The notes below the pieces were generated by a model that was not told the origin of the DNA, made no database searches, and worked only from the letters and a program-made list of their open reading frames with translations. From an uncultured Lachnospiraceae bacterium (GTDB lineage Bacteria > Bacillota > Clostridia > Lachnospirales > Lachnospiraceae), in contig CATNCF010000017.1 of the NCBI GenBank assembly GCA_950097145.1, forward strand, positions 1-54,734: 54,734 bases of DNA, in the 5' to 3' direction. The number at the start of each line of letters is the position of its first letter. Positions within the stretch are counted from its first letter, which is position 1. Shown here in pieces: positions 12,344 through 17,441 of the stretch. Made by a program: the position numbers and the translations under genes.

Positions 12344-12757
12344 TCAAATCCCCCGCAAAAGAAGCTCAGACGGCAAGATCGCCGGAATATCAAATTCTTC
12401 AAAATCTTTTTTATTCCGTGTCACGATATAATCGCAATGAATGGATCTGGCACAAACCGACACAAGGCAGTCCTCAAAGTCTTTTGCCCGTTTCTGGAAT
12501 GCCGCCAGAACGTCACGATCCGTAACGCTGCAGACCTGAACAATTTCTAAGAGCTTTTCAACTGCCTGATATGCAAGTTCTGCGCTGTGCGTATACTTCC
12601 TTACAAGATAATAGATATCGGTAACGGAAGATGCGGACACGAAACCTGCTATTTTCTGTTCTTCACAAAGACTTAATACTTTGTAAGAATCTGCCACAAA
12701 AGGCTTCCGATCCAGCAGAACATCCATGACCACATTCGTATCACACATTATTTTCAT
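12344..12757 (-). CDS. PIN-domain toxin of a type II toxin-antitoxin pair
   Basis: 137 residues, a full PIN domain. MCDTNVVMD supplies the first conserved Asp, KDFEDCLVSVCA the second acidic group, and IVTRNKKDFEEF the C-terminal acidic motif. PIN toxins are metal-dependent RNases that cut tRNA, rRNA or mRNA and are held inactive by an antitoxin. The start at 12757 lies within the last codons of the Phd-type gene (17-bp overlap), the standard antitoxin-first order. The pair stands in the accessory zone between a secreted protein and an anti-sigma-like gene. The RNA target cannot be predicted. Confidence 0.87.
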   Translation of the reverse strand: MKIMCDTNVVMDVLLDRKPFVADSYKVLSLCEEQKIAGFVSASSVTDIYYLVRKYTHSAELAYQAVEKLLEIVQVCSVTDRDVLAAFQKRAKDFEDCLVSVCARSIHCDYIVTRNKKDFEEFDIPAILPSELLLRGI

Positions 12758-12968
12758 ACTTTAACAGCCGCTCCTCCCGCAGTGAATCCAGTTCGATATC
12801 AGAAGAAACGTCTTTCAGCATCCCCCTGAGGGAATCCACAGCGGAAATCTGTGGATTTACAACCTTGGCAATTAATTTTCCGTTTTGGGTGATAAAAATA
12901 TCTTCCTTGGCAATCAAATCCAGATATTTTCCAACGTTCGTTTTAAATTCTGTAGCTGTCACTGTCAT
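12741..12968 (-). CDS. Phd/YefM-type antitoxin
   Basis: 75 residues. The N-terminal TVTATEFKTNVGKYLDLIAK and DIFITQNGKLIAKVV match the Phd/YefM fold, which binds operator DNA; the charged C-terminus (SLREERLLKYENNV) would wrap the toxin. GGAGGAAGCATGATAT precedes the ATG. It overlaps the PIN gene, so both are made from one message, and the complex probably represses its own promoter upstream, in the stretch 12969-13300. Confidence 0.87.
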   Translation of the reverse strand: MTVTATEFKTNVGKYLDLIAKEDIFITQNGKLIAKVVNPQISAVDSLRGMLKDVSSDIELDSLREERLLKYENNV

Positions 12969-13302: not shown

Positions 13303-14040
13303 TTATTCCATCAGTTCCAATCCATCGGCAAGCTCCAACAATTCTTCCTTTGACATCTTTCCGCTTAATTCAATCAAATTCTCTTCATCCGATAATATCA
13401 AACTGCCCACATTATCATCTTTCATGTAATAACCTGTAAAATGATTTACAGTTATCTCTTCTACCCCTTCCATAATATATGTTACATTCCCTATAGTAAC
13501 ATCTGTTTGCCCATTTTGTTTGAAAAGCAGAACATCATTGTCATCATTCATATAAATTATCTGATATTCATGAAACACATCGTCAAATCTATCTTCCTCT
13601 AAATGATACCCTTCAGGAATTTTCGTCAATTTATACTTACGAAAACTCTTCTCCGTCTCCGCAGTTTCTTCATGATTTTCCATAATCACATTTTCTTCTC
13701 TGTTGACTTTCACATGGTCGTCACGCTGTTCCAGCGAAATTTCATACAGCCAGCAAATCAACGTTCTTGCCGCGGCTACGGTTCCGCCCAGCAGCAGCAA
13801 CATTAATGCAATTAACAAAATCAGCTTTCTTCTGGAACGGATGGGACGATAGAGTTCCAGTATGGAAGTTTTCTCTTCCGCTTCCCGTTCCTTTGTTCCA
13901 ATCCGGCGTATCAGACGGCGCATTTTAATTCGAAACTTCAATGAAAACCGATGTTCTGGCAGATCCAGCGGACGATTTTCATATTCCTCTGTCACAATTT
14001 CCTCAAATGCCTCTTTCAGCAGTAAATCCATGTTATCCAT
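13303..14040 (-). CDS. DUF4367-type anti-sigma-like membrane protein
   Basis: 245 residues. A cytoplasmic helical N-terminus (MDNMDLLLKEAFEEIVTEEY, about 1-80) precedes one membrane helix (about 73-92, LILLIALMLLLLGGTVAAA). An extracytoplasmic domain (about 130-245) has the pattern LTKIPEGYHLEE...VLLFKQNGQTDV...GYYMKDDN, as in DUF4367 proteins. Relatives usually follow a sigma-70/ECF gene and act as its anti-sigma factor. No sigma factor gene is adjacent here: upstream there is only about 120 bp and then an unrelated cassette. GGGGG seven bases before ATG 14040 is the binding site. It is either an orphan or a remnant of a lost sigma/anti-sigma pair. Confidence 0.75.
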   Translation of the reverse strand: MDNMDLLLKEAFEEIVTEEYENRPLDLPEHRFSLKFRIKMRRLIRRIGTKEREAEEKTSILELYRPIRSRRKLILLIALMLLLLGGTVAAARTLICWLYEISLEQRDDHVKVNREENVIMENHEETAETEKSFRKYKLTKIPEGYHLEEDRFDDVFHEYQIIYMNDDNDVLLFKQNGQTDVTIGNVTYIMEGVEEITVNHFTGYYMKDDNVGSLILSDEENLIELSGKMSKEELLELADGLELME

Positions 14041-14159
14041 GCCTGTTCCCCCTTATTCTCTAAGAATCTATATTTATTAAGAAACACTTACAGCAAAACA
14101 AGGCATCCTGCTCCCCCATATTTACGTCTGATACCGGGTTCTTCTTATACAATAATTAA

Positions 14160-14846
14160 TTATTCATCCATTAGCTCCAGCAGATGGTCTAATTTATTTT
14201 CAATTCTTCTGCTTTGCTTCATCATCATAATCCTCCATAATTTCTCCTCATTTTCTTCAATAAGATCCCACCATAATTTACAGCAGAATTCCTCTATGCC
14301 AAATATTCTATGCATCTTATCAAAAGCATTTTCTCTTGAAAAATTCTCCACAAGGACCATTTCAATAAAAGTAAACATAATCTTTCTAAGAACATATAAT
14401 TGTTTCAAGTCCCCCATTGTTCTGTCAATACGTTTTTTTCCTATATCTTTTATAATCAAATTTTCAAAACAATATTTTGTGATTTTTTGAAAAGTTTCAT
14501 TAGACATATCCCTTATAAATTTCGCTTCTTCAAATGGCCTGATTACCGAATCAATATATCTCTGCACCCACTTTATAAACTTATCATTATTCTCATAATC
14601 CTCAAGTTTTTCAAATATGTCCCAAAAATCCTCTTTATTTTCAATAGATCGGATCACGTCTGGACTTATATTTACAAATTTCTTTAAGGAATCCAAAAAA
14701 GACTCTGGCACTTCATTGGGAACTGCTAAAGAATCTCCTTTTACAAATTGATTCAAATTGTAACCGCTTTGCTCCAGAATCGTATTAAACAATTCAATTA
14801 TTTTCGCAACCCCATTCTCTTGGAATTCTAATTCTATGCTTTTCAT
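14160..14846 (-). CDS. unrecognised all-helical protein, third gene of the nitrilase cassette
   Basis: 228 residues from ATG 14846, almost entirely predicted helix, rich in Lys/Glu/Ile/Phe, without membrane segments or motifs I know. The C-terminal helix (QSRRIENKLDHLLELMDE) could form a coiled coil. The frame is open up to TTG 14885, but neither start has a good ribosome binding site. From 14846 it overlaps the upstream coiled-coil gene by 53 bp, so translation is probably coupled. It shares the AT-rich base use of its two upstream partners. I know no homologue by sight. Confidence 0.7.
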   Translation of the reverse strand: MKSIELEFQENGVAKIIELFNTILEQSGYNLNQFVKGDSLAVPNEVPESFLDSLKKFVNISPDVIRSIENKEDFWDIFEKLEDYENNDKFIKWVQRYIDSVIRPFEEAKFIRDMSNETFQKITKYCFENLIIKDIGKKRIDRTMGDLKQLYVLRKIMFTFIEMVLVENFSRENAFDKMHRIFGIEEFCCKLWWDLIEENEEKLWRIMMMKQSRRIENKLDHLLELMDE

Positions 14847-15804
14847 TATTTTTATACACACTCTCTTTCTCTGTTCTGATTTCAAAGATTTTTGCCGTAT
14901 ACATATCTTCCTGATCCGATATAAATTTTTGAGCCATAATATGGTATTTTGATTGAATCGCCCACTCTCTTTCTGGTGACAATTTTTCTAATTTAAGCTC
15001 ACATTCTATTCCTTTATTATAAGAATTTTCTAAAGCTTCCATTAAACTATCACAATTTTTATAAATTAACTGGTTAGAAGCTTCTCTAGAAAACTTTTCC
15101 TGTGAATCCATCACATGAGCATAATACTTTCTTCCTGATGGGGACAAGGAAATCTGAATACTTTCTGGCTTTTTACGCATATTAAAATATTTTGAATTAC
15201 GGCTTAATATAGCTTCCAATTCTCTCTTGGATAGTTCTGTCTGTTCTTGAAGCTGTTCTAACTCCATATGTCTTTGCTTACTTAAATTTTTCAAAACATC
15301 TGCCATTTTTTGATATTTTTCGGATATTCTATCATACTCTTCTTCCTCTCTGCGAAGCTGTTCTTCTTTCTCATATAATTCATACAGCATGTTCATATGG
15401 CTTAAATAAGCTGCATCTCTCATTATTTCATTTAACTTATCATATACCTTCTCAACGACTTTCTGATAAATTCTGTCAGATACTTCAACCGCCTGGAATT
15501 GATTTATCTTGTCAGTTGATAAAGCCAGACTATCCATCTTTTCTTTGTATTCCCAAACAATTTCAATCATATTGTCTTTACTAATTTCAGAAATCTGCTC
15601 TGCGATTTTCTTTGTATCAAAACATAATTGGTATTTTTGTTTAAATTGTTCTTCTAAGTCAATTAAGTCGTCTAACTGCTGATTTTTCACTCCTGTTTTA
15701 ATATAATTATGAACAGAATTTCCTAATTCCCTCAGATATGTTTCTTTTTCACAATCATTTTTCTCATCTATATAAGTTTTTTTTGTATATTCATTTTTTC
15801 CCAT
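14794..15804 (-). CDS. coiled-coil protein with probable winged-helix segment
   Basis: 336 residues. The ATG at 15804 has AGAGGGTG upstream; GTG 15813 is a weaker alternative. Residues 45-135 are helical and 140-185 form an acidic/basic coiled coil (YEKEEQLRREEEEYDRISEK). Residues about 180-230 read like a winged helix: TELSKRELEAILSRN, then YFNMRKKPESIQISLSPSGRKYY, where the strand-turn-strand would be the wing. The C-terminal 100 residues are helical. DNA or RNA binding is therefore plausible. It lies 28 bp after the nitrilase-like gene and overlaps the third gene. It has no metal or nucleotide-binding motif. Confidence 0.75.
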   Translation of the reverse strand: MGKNEYTKKTYIDEKNDCEKETYLRELGNSVHNYIKTGVKNQQLDDLIDLEEQFKQKYQLCFDTKKIAEQISEISKDNMIEIVWEYKEKMDSLALSTDKINQFQAVEVSDRIYQKVVEKVYDKLNEIMRDAAYLSHMNMLYELYEKEEQLRREEEEYDRISEKYQKMADVLKNLSKQRHMELEQLQEQTELSKRELEAILSRNSKYFNMRKKPESIQISLSPSGRKYYAHVMDSQEKFSREASNQLIYKNCDSLMEALENSYNKGIECELKLEKLSPEREWAIQSKYHIMAQKFISDQEDMYTAKIFEIRTEKESVYKNNEKHRIRIPREWGCENN

Positions 15805-15832
15805 ATTTATCACCCTCTTTTTGAATAAATTT

Positions 15833-17284
15833 CTAAAACCACTCTTCTTTTATCTCATAACTTATTCCTTCTCGATATTGTCTTGTATGATAAAAATCTA
15901 TGGTAAATTTTTTTGTTACACACATTTTTTCACATTCCTGAGCACAGGAGCCTCTGTTATATCTTCTCAATATATTGGAGCGATCCGTGTCATTTTTAGC
16001 AGGAAGCGTAATAAAACCAATTCTATTGTCTAATTTCAGTCCTTTACCTAATGCTGAACATGCATTAGCTACTACCACCACACAATTATATTGCTTAGAT
16101 AAATCTTCTGCCGAAGCCTGTATATCCATAGATTTTGTATAAGCAGGAATTATTAATAAATCTGTTCCAATACATTTGTGAAATAATTTAACCTTTTCAC
16201 TTATCAAATCTTTACAGATTCCAATTCCAACTCTTCCCAAACCTTCTATTTCCAAAATCGTATATTCTTTATTTTTCTCTGTTCTTAAAAACTCCTTATA
16301 TTGTATATTGTCTTTTTCAAATTTAAATGGCTCCTTTTTACAGTAATTAAAAATTTCTTTTCCGTTCCCGTCTGTAATAACAGATTTATTCACATAATCT
16401 TTCCAAATAGAACCATTAATAATAAACTGCGGACTTGAAACTTTTTCTTTATATTGTATAGCAGAAATGATATTTTCGGTCATCAGCATTTCTGGAAATA
16501 TTAAAAAATCAATATCTTGCTTTTCACATCGGGCGCAAATATCTTTATATCGTTCTTTTAGTTCGTTCTCTGGTCCTTTATACATATTCAAAATATAAAA
16601 TGCCCTATTATCATATTCAACATGCAGCATTTCTTTTATAGGCTTGTCCGTAAAGGGGACAATTCCAAATGTAATTTGCTTTCTCTCATAAAAGTGTTTA
16701 AAAACAGAACTCTTTTTATCAAAATGATAAATTAATGCAGGGTAATTCTTAATATGCTGCTTATCCCAAATCATATAGTTTATTGTCTCGCCATCTAATA
16801 TGGAACATGCACATTCTCTCCTATCTCTAAATAATGAATATTCATTATTATCAATACTTCTGAACTGAATATCTCCCCGTTCCAAAAAAGTTCCTTTCAT
16901 TTTGGGTATAATTCTTACATGATCCCTATATTGCTCATTCATAGAAGTATATTCAATCACATGTTTTCCTTTCAGCAGCCTGTCACTTATTTCCACCTCA
17001 ACCAACTCATCAATATATTTTACAACCGCAAAACACTTTTCCACTGTTACTTCTGGCATCAAAAAAGAAAACAAATAATCTTTTAATTCATGAAAAGCTC
17101 TTTTACATCCCTTCTGCTGCCGCTCGCAGCAATATCTTTGGACTGCATCATATACATTATCATAATCATCATCAGGAAACTGGGCAAATTCATATGGCTT
17201 CCTGTCTAATTCATTAAAAATATAAGAACTGCACAAAGCTAATAAATCATAAATCTTATCAATTTTCTTTAATTGTTCTAACAA
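15833..17284 (-). CDS. nitrilase-superfamily (carbon-nitrogen hydrolase) protein with extra N-terminal domain
   Basis: 483 residues. From about 200 to 430 the carbon-nitrogen hydrolase pattern is visible: FLIFPEM with Glu265, YCKKEPFKF with Lys316/317, and GRVGIGICKDL with Cys357, the Glu-Lys-Cys triad; LLIIPAY and VVVVANACS follow as the usual core strands. Such enzymes cleave amides or nitriles. The first 200 residues are a separate helical region I do not recognise, and a Cys-rich patch (447-455) lies near the end. The start is TTG 17284, with GGAGGAG 11 bases upstream; a stop excludes a longer frame. First gene of an AT-rich three-gene cassette. Substrate unknown. Confidence 0.82.
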   Translation of the reverse strand: MLEQLKKIDKIYDLLALCSSYIFNELDRKPYEFAQFPDDDYDNVYDAVQRYCCERQQKGCKRAFHELKDYLFSFLMPEVTVEKCFAVVKYIDELVEVEISDRLLKGKHVIEYTSMNEQYRDHVRIIPKMKGTFLERGDIQFRSIDNNEYSLFRDRRECACSILDGETINYMIWDKQHIKNYPALIYHFDKKSSVFKHFYERKQITFGIVPFTDKPIKEMLHVEYDNRAFYILNMYKGPENELKERYKDICARCEKQDIDFLIFPEMLMTENIISAIQYKEKVSSPQFIINGSIWKDYVNKSVITDGNGKEIFNYCKKEPFKFEKDNIQYKEFLRTEKNKEYTILEIEGLGRVGIGICKDLISEKVKLFHKCIGTDLLIIPAYTKSMDIQASAEDLSKQYNCVVVVANACSALGKGLKLDNRIGFITLPAKNDTDRSNILRRYNRGSCAQECEKMCVTKKFTIDFYHTRQYREGISYEIKEEWF

Positions 17285-17387
17285 AGTTATTTCAACTCCT
17301 CCTCATAATCATTTATATCAAACATCCACTGCCTGCTTCATGGGCTATATCTGCTTTCTCCTGACATCATTATATCATCAAAAAGAA

Positions 17388-17433
17388 ACAAATAAAAGCC
17401 TTTTCGGGCTTCCATTTACCCAAAAAGGCTTTC
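17388..17433 (-). terminator. intrinsic terminator of the ABC exporter operon
   Basis: On the minus strand AAAGCCTTTTTGGG pairs with CCCGAAAAGGCTTTT across a short loop, followed by TTTATTTG. It lies nine bases beyond the permease stop and separates the exporter operon from the nitrilase cassette. Confidence 0.85.
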
Positions 17434-17441
17434 ATCGTACG

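Follow-up and report, generated by a model that had tools for sequence, protein, structure and literature searches.

The question raised by this locus is what function is served when a divergent nitrilase-superfamily enzyme, a winged-helix protein and a third protein of no known family are encoded together in a compact cassette of low guanine-plus-cytosine (GC) content. The cassette lies at positions 14,160 to 17,284 of a 54,734-nucleotide (nt) stretch of DNA from an uncultured Lachnospiraceae bacterium (assembly GCA_950097145.1, contig CATNCF010000017.1), and this whole stretch is referred to below as the window. The central observation is that the trio is a recurrent unit: at 17 of 17 trio loci, which represent 15 different sites, the enzyme gene comes first, the winged-helix gene second and the third gene last, all on one strand. 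The reading that we tentatively prefer, with a confidence that stays somewhat short of even, is that the trio is a module which spreads horizontally and acts against phages or mobile elements through growth arrest or cell death, with gene 1 probably the effector. The three genes, called with a simple picker of open reading frames (ORFs), are as follows.

15833..17284, minus strand: gene 1 (NIT), 483 amino acids (aa), TTG start at 17284, taken from the ORF list; the nitrilase-superfamily enzyme.
14794..15813, minus strand: gene 2 (mid/CC), 339 aa, GTG start with an in-frame ATG at 15804; the winged-helix protein.
14160..14846, minus strand: gene 3 (HEL), 228 aa, ATG start; no known family.

Genes 1 and 2 are separated by a 19-nt gap and genes 2 and 3 overlap by 53 nt; an alternative TTG start for gene 3 at 14885 is probably too early, and the ATG at 14846 agrees with the relatives. 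The GC content of the trio is 30.6% vs 43.6% in the remaining window, and each of 92 flank windows of the same length has a higher value. The original prediction, which was made from the letters of the window, had described three minus-strand genes with short or negative spacing and a higher A+T content than their flanks, and both the ORF coordinates and the GC comparison agree with that description. The genome itself (80 contigs, 82.8% complete) holds one copy of the trio. None of the three window proteins has an accepted match in Pfam, PADLOC or NCBIfam, and the best match in PADLOC-DB 2.0.0 is partial (expectation value, E, 0.027). No Pfam RVT match to a reverse transcriptase (RT) was found in any of the three, and no RT is common to the trio loci. 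Around the window trio Rfam gave a single match for a structured RNA, which was below threshold and implausible and was not accepted.

A chance run of three genes is ruled out, because the trio recurs in other genomes, and the suggestion that they might never be found together again fails on the 17 loci which share order and strand. Loci and genomes are labelled below with L and G numbers, and the genome sample contains one genome per species. Among 397 genomes of the window's family, 15 gave an enzyme relative in a protein search, and a search with an enzyme profile (E 1e-17) likewise returned 15 of 397: G333 was new, and the broken copy in G050 no longer appeared. The remaining 14 genomes had supplied the copies for this profile, and G333 alone is independent of it. 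Searches and gene maps together place the trio in 10 of the 397 family genomes, one of which (G338) holds two different copies, while five family genomes have the enzyme gene with no visible partners, four of them with both sides covered and the fifth (L017) cut by a contig end. Within the window's genus a full-length copy is present in 4 of 29 genomes, a fifth match being an ordinary nitrilase, and two remote alleles occur at different sites. In a phylum sample of 398 genomes the profile matched 44, full-length in two, both of the window's family, and no full-length enzyme was seen outside that family. A collection of named genomes, searched with a 3-row alignment that reaches closer relatives only, gave five relatives, in the Lachnospiraceae bacteria X68 and B57_57_RB_H (taken as L080 and L081), RGIG8631 (L087) and ABMPRH_248_3 (L088), and in a Eubacterium sp. 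metagenome-assembled genome (L086). All seven full-length enzyme relatives found after the first profile (L080-L083, L086-L088) have the trio, and two of them share the window's site; as a test of co-occurrence the enzyme is more independent than the third-gene profiles considered below.

The arrangement is tight as well as constant. At 12 of the 17 loci genes 2 and 3 overlap by at least 8 nt; one further locus has an overlap of 1 nt, and the other four have gaps of 8-155 nt; the distance between genes 1 and 2 ranges from -28 to 96 nt at 16 of 17 loci (the overlap in L088 depends on the chosen start) and reaches 257 nt in L025. A fourth shared gene within 2.5 kb was sought among 481 ORFs near 15 loci, and one weak cross-locus pair was obtained (E 9e-5, ligase-type by eye), which gives no clear fourth component. 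The GC content of the trio is below that of its flanks at 17/17 loci and below every flank window of the same length at 14 of the 16 loci that could be evaluated in this way (the exceptions are L026 and L029, L083 could not be evaluated, and the window, L080 and L081 share one site). None of the five partner-less enzymes (0/5) lies at such a GC minimum.

The identification of gene 1 rests on the parts of the protein that are given here.

15920..16678, minus strand: nitrilase-like catalytic domain together with the C-terminal cysteine motif, edges approximate.
15920-15946: the cysteine motif (residues 447-455 of gene 1), after the nitrilase domain.
Residues 1 to about 200 of gene 1: N-terminal domain of unknown kind.

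The tetrad Glu265, Lys316, Glu331 and Cys357 is invariant in 22/22 relatives, as are Asn407 and Cys409. The catalytic residues had been proposed in the original prediction as Glu265, Lys316-317 and Cys357; the glutamate and the cysteine hold, Lys316 is the one of the two lysines that is retained, and Glu331 completes the set. The spacing of 15 residues from the lysine to the glutamate fits members of the nitrilase superfamily. The window protein matches the Pfam family CN_hydrolase (PF00795) over residues 270-387 with 14 bits (E 0.032), below the cut-off of 23.2 bits, and a 15-row family profile matches solved chains of the nitrilase superfamily with a best E of 5.8e-5; a profile of the window's own enzyme branch alone matched no solved superfamily chain in a sequence search of the PDB. 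Because the Pfam score falls below the cut-off and the family profile nevertheless matches solved members, gene 1 is read as a divergent branch of the superfamily. It is like ordinary amidases of the superfamily (yeast YLR351C, Nit2, NAD synthetase, pantetheinase) in the order of the tetrad and in a weak profile match, but the ordinary matches in the phylum are frames of 194-388 aa whose scores with the family profile do not exceed 54 bits, whereas enzyme relatives outside the profile build score 252-321 bits. The C-terminal motif C447-x3-C451-x3-C455 has each of its cysteine columns kept in 21/22 relatives; L017 is cut before two of them, and L083 differs at the first. One guess is that the motif holds zinc or an iron-sulfur cluster, and another, equally a guess, is that it serves as a redox or metal switch; the relatives that carry it belong to what we take to be an anaerobic group.

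Gene 2 supplies the second component, and its recognition comes through its relatives, with the relevant region located as follows.

15094..15306, minus strand: winged-helix region within gene 2, about residues 170-240, given as the aligned stretch.

All 17 gene 2 proteins are connected by BLAST at E 0.01 or better. Across the family, Pfam HTH_24 (E 2.6e-5) and MarR (E 1.4e-4) are each matched in 5/15 members, the family profile matches HlyU, ArsR and MarR chains in the PDB with a best E of 1.7e-6, and the window's branch aligns with the other gene 2 proteins (hhalign E 8.5e-8) over 112 columns across the winged helix. The window protein alone stays under every Pfam cut-off, and a profile of its branch alone is likewise without a match in the PDB. 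The probable winged helix that had been suggested for this gene is thus upheld by way of its relatives (hhalign, Pfam and the PDB profile); the coiled coil in the same protein is a feature predicted in the original prediction.

Many substrate-inducible operons pair an enzyme with a winged helix of MarR/ArsR type, and it is here that the main rival to a conflict role arises, namely a transferable operon for the response to a small molecule. The winged-helix protein would repress its own operon, a nitrile or amide would relieve the repression, the enzyme would detoxify or use the compound, and the third protein would be an accessory subunit. The intact tetrad next to a winged helix of this kind speaks for such an operon, but the winged helix is internal to a protein of 243-367 aa which is encoded downstream of the enzyme, and no transporter or metabolic gene recurs within 2.5 kb of the trio. 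We consider a portable amide- or nitrile-response operon somewhat unlikely, and further evidence on both sides of it is given below.

The phylogeny of the enzymes bears on the same issue. In a maximum-likelihood tree the 22 enzyme relatives split from four ordinary nitrilases (100/100), taken from six candidates, and the five enzymes that have no visible partners form one clade (100/100). Support for placing this clade next to trio enzymes is modest (86/80 with L021); such a position would suggest that the partners were lost. The finer order of the tree is unsure where the branches are long (L025, L028, L029 and L030). The first part of the L021 enzyme ORF is not in frame, L017 is cut by a contig end, and the broken enzyme gene of L031 (in G050) was kept out of the alignments. 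The partner-less relatives keep the tetrad, which favours the response operon in that the enzyme can evidently be useful alone; against that operon, their neighbours have nothing in common beyond generic ABC- or transporter-type matches. One expectation expressed beforehand was that homologues of the hydrolase might lie alone in metabolic operons. Enzymes that stand alone do occur, five in number, but they belong to a single clade and share no common metabolic operon.

The third protein had been described in the original prediction as all-helical. A profile of the window's branch of gene 3 matches the third genes at four remote trio loci (E 5.1e-9, 201 columns), and a profile of six of the third proteins found at seven other loci shows no detectable relation to it (hhalign probability 0.2%). 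Because the profiles of the two sets are without detectable relation, the third gene exists, as judged by this comparison, in two types, and the type is not strictly coupled to the enzyme tree. For gene 3, PDB sequence searches gave weak and implausible matches only; the third gene of L024 has a C-terminal match to DUF1828 with 21.3 bits against a cut-off of 22. Lack of a known family and the occurrence of two unrelated types are not what the response operon would lead one to expect of its third gene. The profile searches recovered mainly their own members: the type 2 profile matched 6 of 397 genomes, all with the trio, five of which had supplied the profile, and the type 1 profile matched 6 of 348, among them four trio genomes which are all profile members.

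Third-gene homologues were also noted away from a complete trio. At L143 (9190-9807, in G306) an orphan homologue that is 34% identical to the third protein of L030 lies directly behind a gene for a DUF815 AAA+ ATPase, with no enzyme or winged-helix match across the 18 kb around it. At L144 (7289-7516, in G263) an ilvA-like gene (named by eye) is followed by what is left of a type 1 third gene, a remnant of 75 aa, and L024 (8451-11888, in G087) holds a full trio at the same site downstream of ilvA. That the remnant and the full trio share this site suggests that it is an insertion hotspot.

The site in the window can be compared with the same site in related genomes, which is described by three features.

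14068..17390: stretch present in the window and absent in the sister genome G176 (L114); edges approximate, set by the ends of the DNA alignment.
17391..17436, minus strand: intrinsic terminator of the upstream permease-like gene, similar in L080, in L081 and at the trio-less site.
17369..17377, minus strand: extended -10 promoter-like element TGNTATAAT, just past the terminator; from the alignment, by eye.

In G176 the site exists without the trio, and its DNA can be aligned with that of the window to either side (17391 onward and 13303-14067); the order there is the permease-like gene, a VOC-type gene (named by eye) and DUF4367. In L080 and L081 the order is permease, trio, VOC and DUF4367. 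The flanking permease gene is present in 28 of the 29 genus genomes, and in five further genomes (L115-L119) no trio was found beside it, the contig of L117 ending soon after. The trio begins directly after the terminator of the permease gene. The element TGNTATAAT is present in all three copies at the same site (window, L080 and L081), and a scan with the consensus did not list it. A promoter-like element placed after a terminator is a further point for the response operon; no operator-like inverted repeat was seen before gene 1 in a by-eye look. The GC depletion of the trio and its patchy distribution, by comparison, argue against an ordinary inducible operon.

Comparison of the three species that share the site also gives a measure of selection. 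The ratio of nonsynonymous to synonymous substitution rates (dN/dS) is 0.10-0.20 in all three genes of the trio; four conserved neighbours have values of 0.03-0.09 and the fast-evolving DUF4367 gene 0.06-0.27, and by this measure the trio is under purifying selection and its function is maintained. The synonymous rate (dS) of the trio, 0.84-1.81, is near saturation and resembles that of the neighbours; for this reason the trio probably entered the site before the divergence of the three species, and from G176 it was either lost or always absent. Long retention of the trio under purifying selection, at a site shared by three species, speaks for a regulatory module for stress or development that would have no part in conflict, the winged-helix protein reading a protein or peptide signal which the enzyme modifies; the cysteine motif, whose role is guessed, could act there as a redox or metal switch. 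The trio is, however, present in just 10/397 family genomes, GC-poor, at different sites and with two remote alleles in one genus. Because such a patchy, GC-poor, multi-site pattern is unexpected of a housekeeping regulator, we regard a regulatory module as quite improbable.

The same pattern of mobility raises an addiction module of the toxin-antitoxin kind, the next rival after the response operon. The enzyme would be a toxin neutralised by its partner or partners, and the module would be maintained by post-segregational killing on integrative elements. The operon is tight, its genes often overlap, and copies are found at many sites; in one of them (L087) the trio has a TraG P-loop gene on one side and a serine recombinase gene on the other, which are of conjugation and recombinase type, and decayed copies occur as a broken enzyme gene in L031 and as the third-gene remnant in L144. 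A clade of five enzymes without a visible partner and with the tetrad intact would not be expected of a toxin, and three queries against 72,556 plasmid records gave no match. On balance an addiction module appears unlikely.

What favours an effector role in conflict is in part the layout of the cassette and in part a precedent. An enzyme with an intact tetrad, a partner of nucleic-acid-binding type, an exchangeable third protein and a patchy, GC-poor cassette together resemble conflict systems. In DRT1, the nitrilase domain is an abortive effector and a C1116A mutant does not give immunity; the domain acts as an oligomer, is kept closed in filaments, and needs its cysteine for abortive infection (PMC13275509). 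Gene 1 is like DRT1 in having a nitrilase-superfamily domain in which the active-site cysteine, essential in DRT1, is conserved, and it is a plausible effector. It is unlike DRT1 in that DRT1 is a fusion of RT and nitrilase, while the trio has no RT match and has two unrelated partner proteins; gene 1 is also a separate protein with its own N-terminal domain and its C-terminal cysteine motif, and it has no PADLOC match at E 1. A second RT-nitrilase, UG5, is described as a system with a one-transmembrane protein which sits in P4-like satellites (PMC9122126). It resembles the window trio in placing a nitrilase domain in a multi-gene locus, which for UG5 is anti-phage, and differs from it in being an RT fusion with a transmembrane partner, where the window trio has no RT match. 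In the literature searched, as far as the sources were accessible, the phage-defence nitrilases are the RT-nitrilase ones (PMC13275509, PMC9122126), and the accessible portion of the main text of PMC13092281 does not mention a nitrilase. A three-gene nitrilase system was not found in the literature searched, in which subscription papers are thinly covered; together with the searches of PADLOC, NCBIfam and Pfam above cut-off, this agrees with the earlier remark that no described system of this make-up was known to its author.

On the analogy of DRT1 we propose that gene 1 is a guarded nitrilase effector. In an uninfected cell the winged-helix protein and the third protein would form a complex with the enzyme and so keep it inactive. 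These two partners, of which the third protein is exchangeable, would sense a product of infection, which might be a state of the DNA, a phage protein or altered transcription; the enzyme, released or re-assembled, would then cleave an amide bond of some small molecule or protein that the cell needs, and the infected cell would arrest before phage is made. A more specific version of this proposal is that of a free-standing, RT-free nitrilase immune module in gut Lachnospiraceae, with a winged-helix sensor, a third protein of two types, a GC-poor cassette, one lineage that keeps the enzyme alone, and a cysteine triad that may be a metal or redox trigger; taken with all these particulars it is rather doubtful. 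If it were true, a small RT-free nitrilase module with its active site intact would make it simpler to identify the targets of such enzymes, and it would widen the repertoire of gut bacteria. If the trio were instead a portable amide-response operon, it would still be one that is undescribed as far as searched and that is exchanged between species.

The neighbourhoods of the trio contribute to this proposal at individual loci. The association with defence genes is clear at L029, where the distance from the trio is 2-8 kb and the genes are one with an FRG domain (PDC-S15, E 1.3e-44), those of a type II-A retron (NDT E 1.7e-81, RT E 1.9e-107) and AbiH (Pfam E 8.5e-32); the locus also adjoins a transposase (IS3-type by eye). 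It is suggestive at L088, where genes for GmrSD_N and Schlafen AlbA_2 lie about 4-6 kb away. Type II-A retrons have an enzyme-plus-winged-helix theme. The retron at L029, which consists of an RT with an NDT-like effector, is a neighbour and a separate system; the window trio itself has no RT match, and there is no accepted Rfam match around it. The FRG gene, the retron and AbiH form a compact group of defence genes at L029 (6200-12075).

Several results weigh against the preferred reading of the trio as a mobile defence module. At most loci the trio is a lone insertion, and the genes around it look, by eye, like housekeeping genes. Plasmids, phages and viral contigs gave no relative with the queries used, which mostly reach close relatives only. 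Long retention at the window site fits any useful function. Two further matches of the type 1 third-gene profile, the orphan in G306 and the fragment in G263, are both without partners and weaken the notion that the genes never occur apart. A PADLOC scan (E 1e-15) matched 71 families among 130 neighbour proteins and 14 families, with one member each, among 123 control proteins, the comparison leaving aside 20 of 150 neighbours (from L080 and L081, which share the window's site) and 2 of 125 controls (for their length). The best 25 of the 71 neighbour families comprise 22 RT models, all of them values of the one RT at L029, together with NDT, DpdF and mad3, and the 14 control families include DpdF and mad3. 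Because the 22 RT families listed reflect one protein and DpdF and mad3 occur in the controls as well, no general enrichment of the trio in defence islands is claimed from the comparison of neighbours with controls. Of what the original prediction had put forward, a coherent, foreign-looking nitrilase cassette is retained, while the defence role stays hypothetical, with contexts such as those of L029 and L087 on one side and the housekeeping-like surroundings of most loci on the other. An anti-phage role for the trio is plausible in view of the defence genes at L029 and of the nitrilase effector of DRT1.

The genes that adjoin the cassette in the window were evaluated as possible parts of it. 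The toxin-antitoxin pair and the anti-sigma-like gene noted earlier beside the trio are real by Pfam, the former as a Phd/YefM-like antitoxin with a PIN_3 toxin (12344-12968) and the latter as a DUF4367 gene (13303-14040). The Phd/PIN pair is rejected as a part of the cassette, since it is missing at the same site in L080 and L081; it is missing in L114 as well, and it is probably a separate insertion in a variable region. The DUF4367 gene is rejected on the ground that it also neighbours the site in G176, which is without the trio; four genomes have it next to the site, and its rate of evolution is close to that of the cassette (61-69% identity). Near the trio-less site in L114 (3741-4766) a Schlafen AlbA_2 gene and other unknown ORFs replace the Phd/PIN pair, which marks this spot as a variable one.

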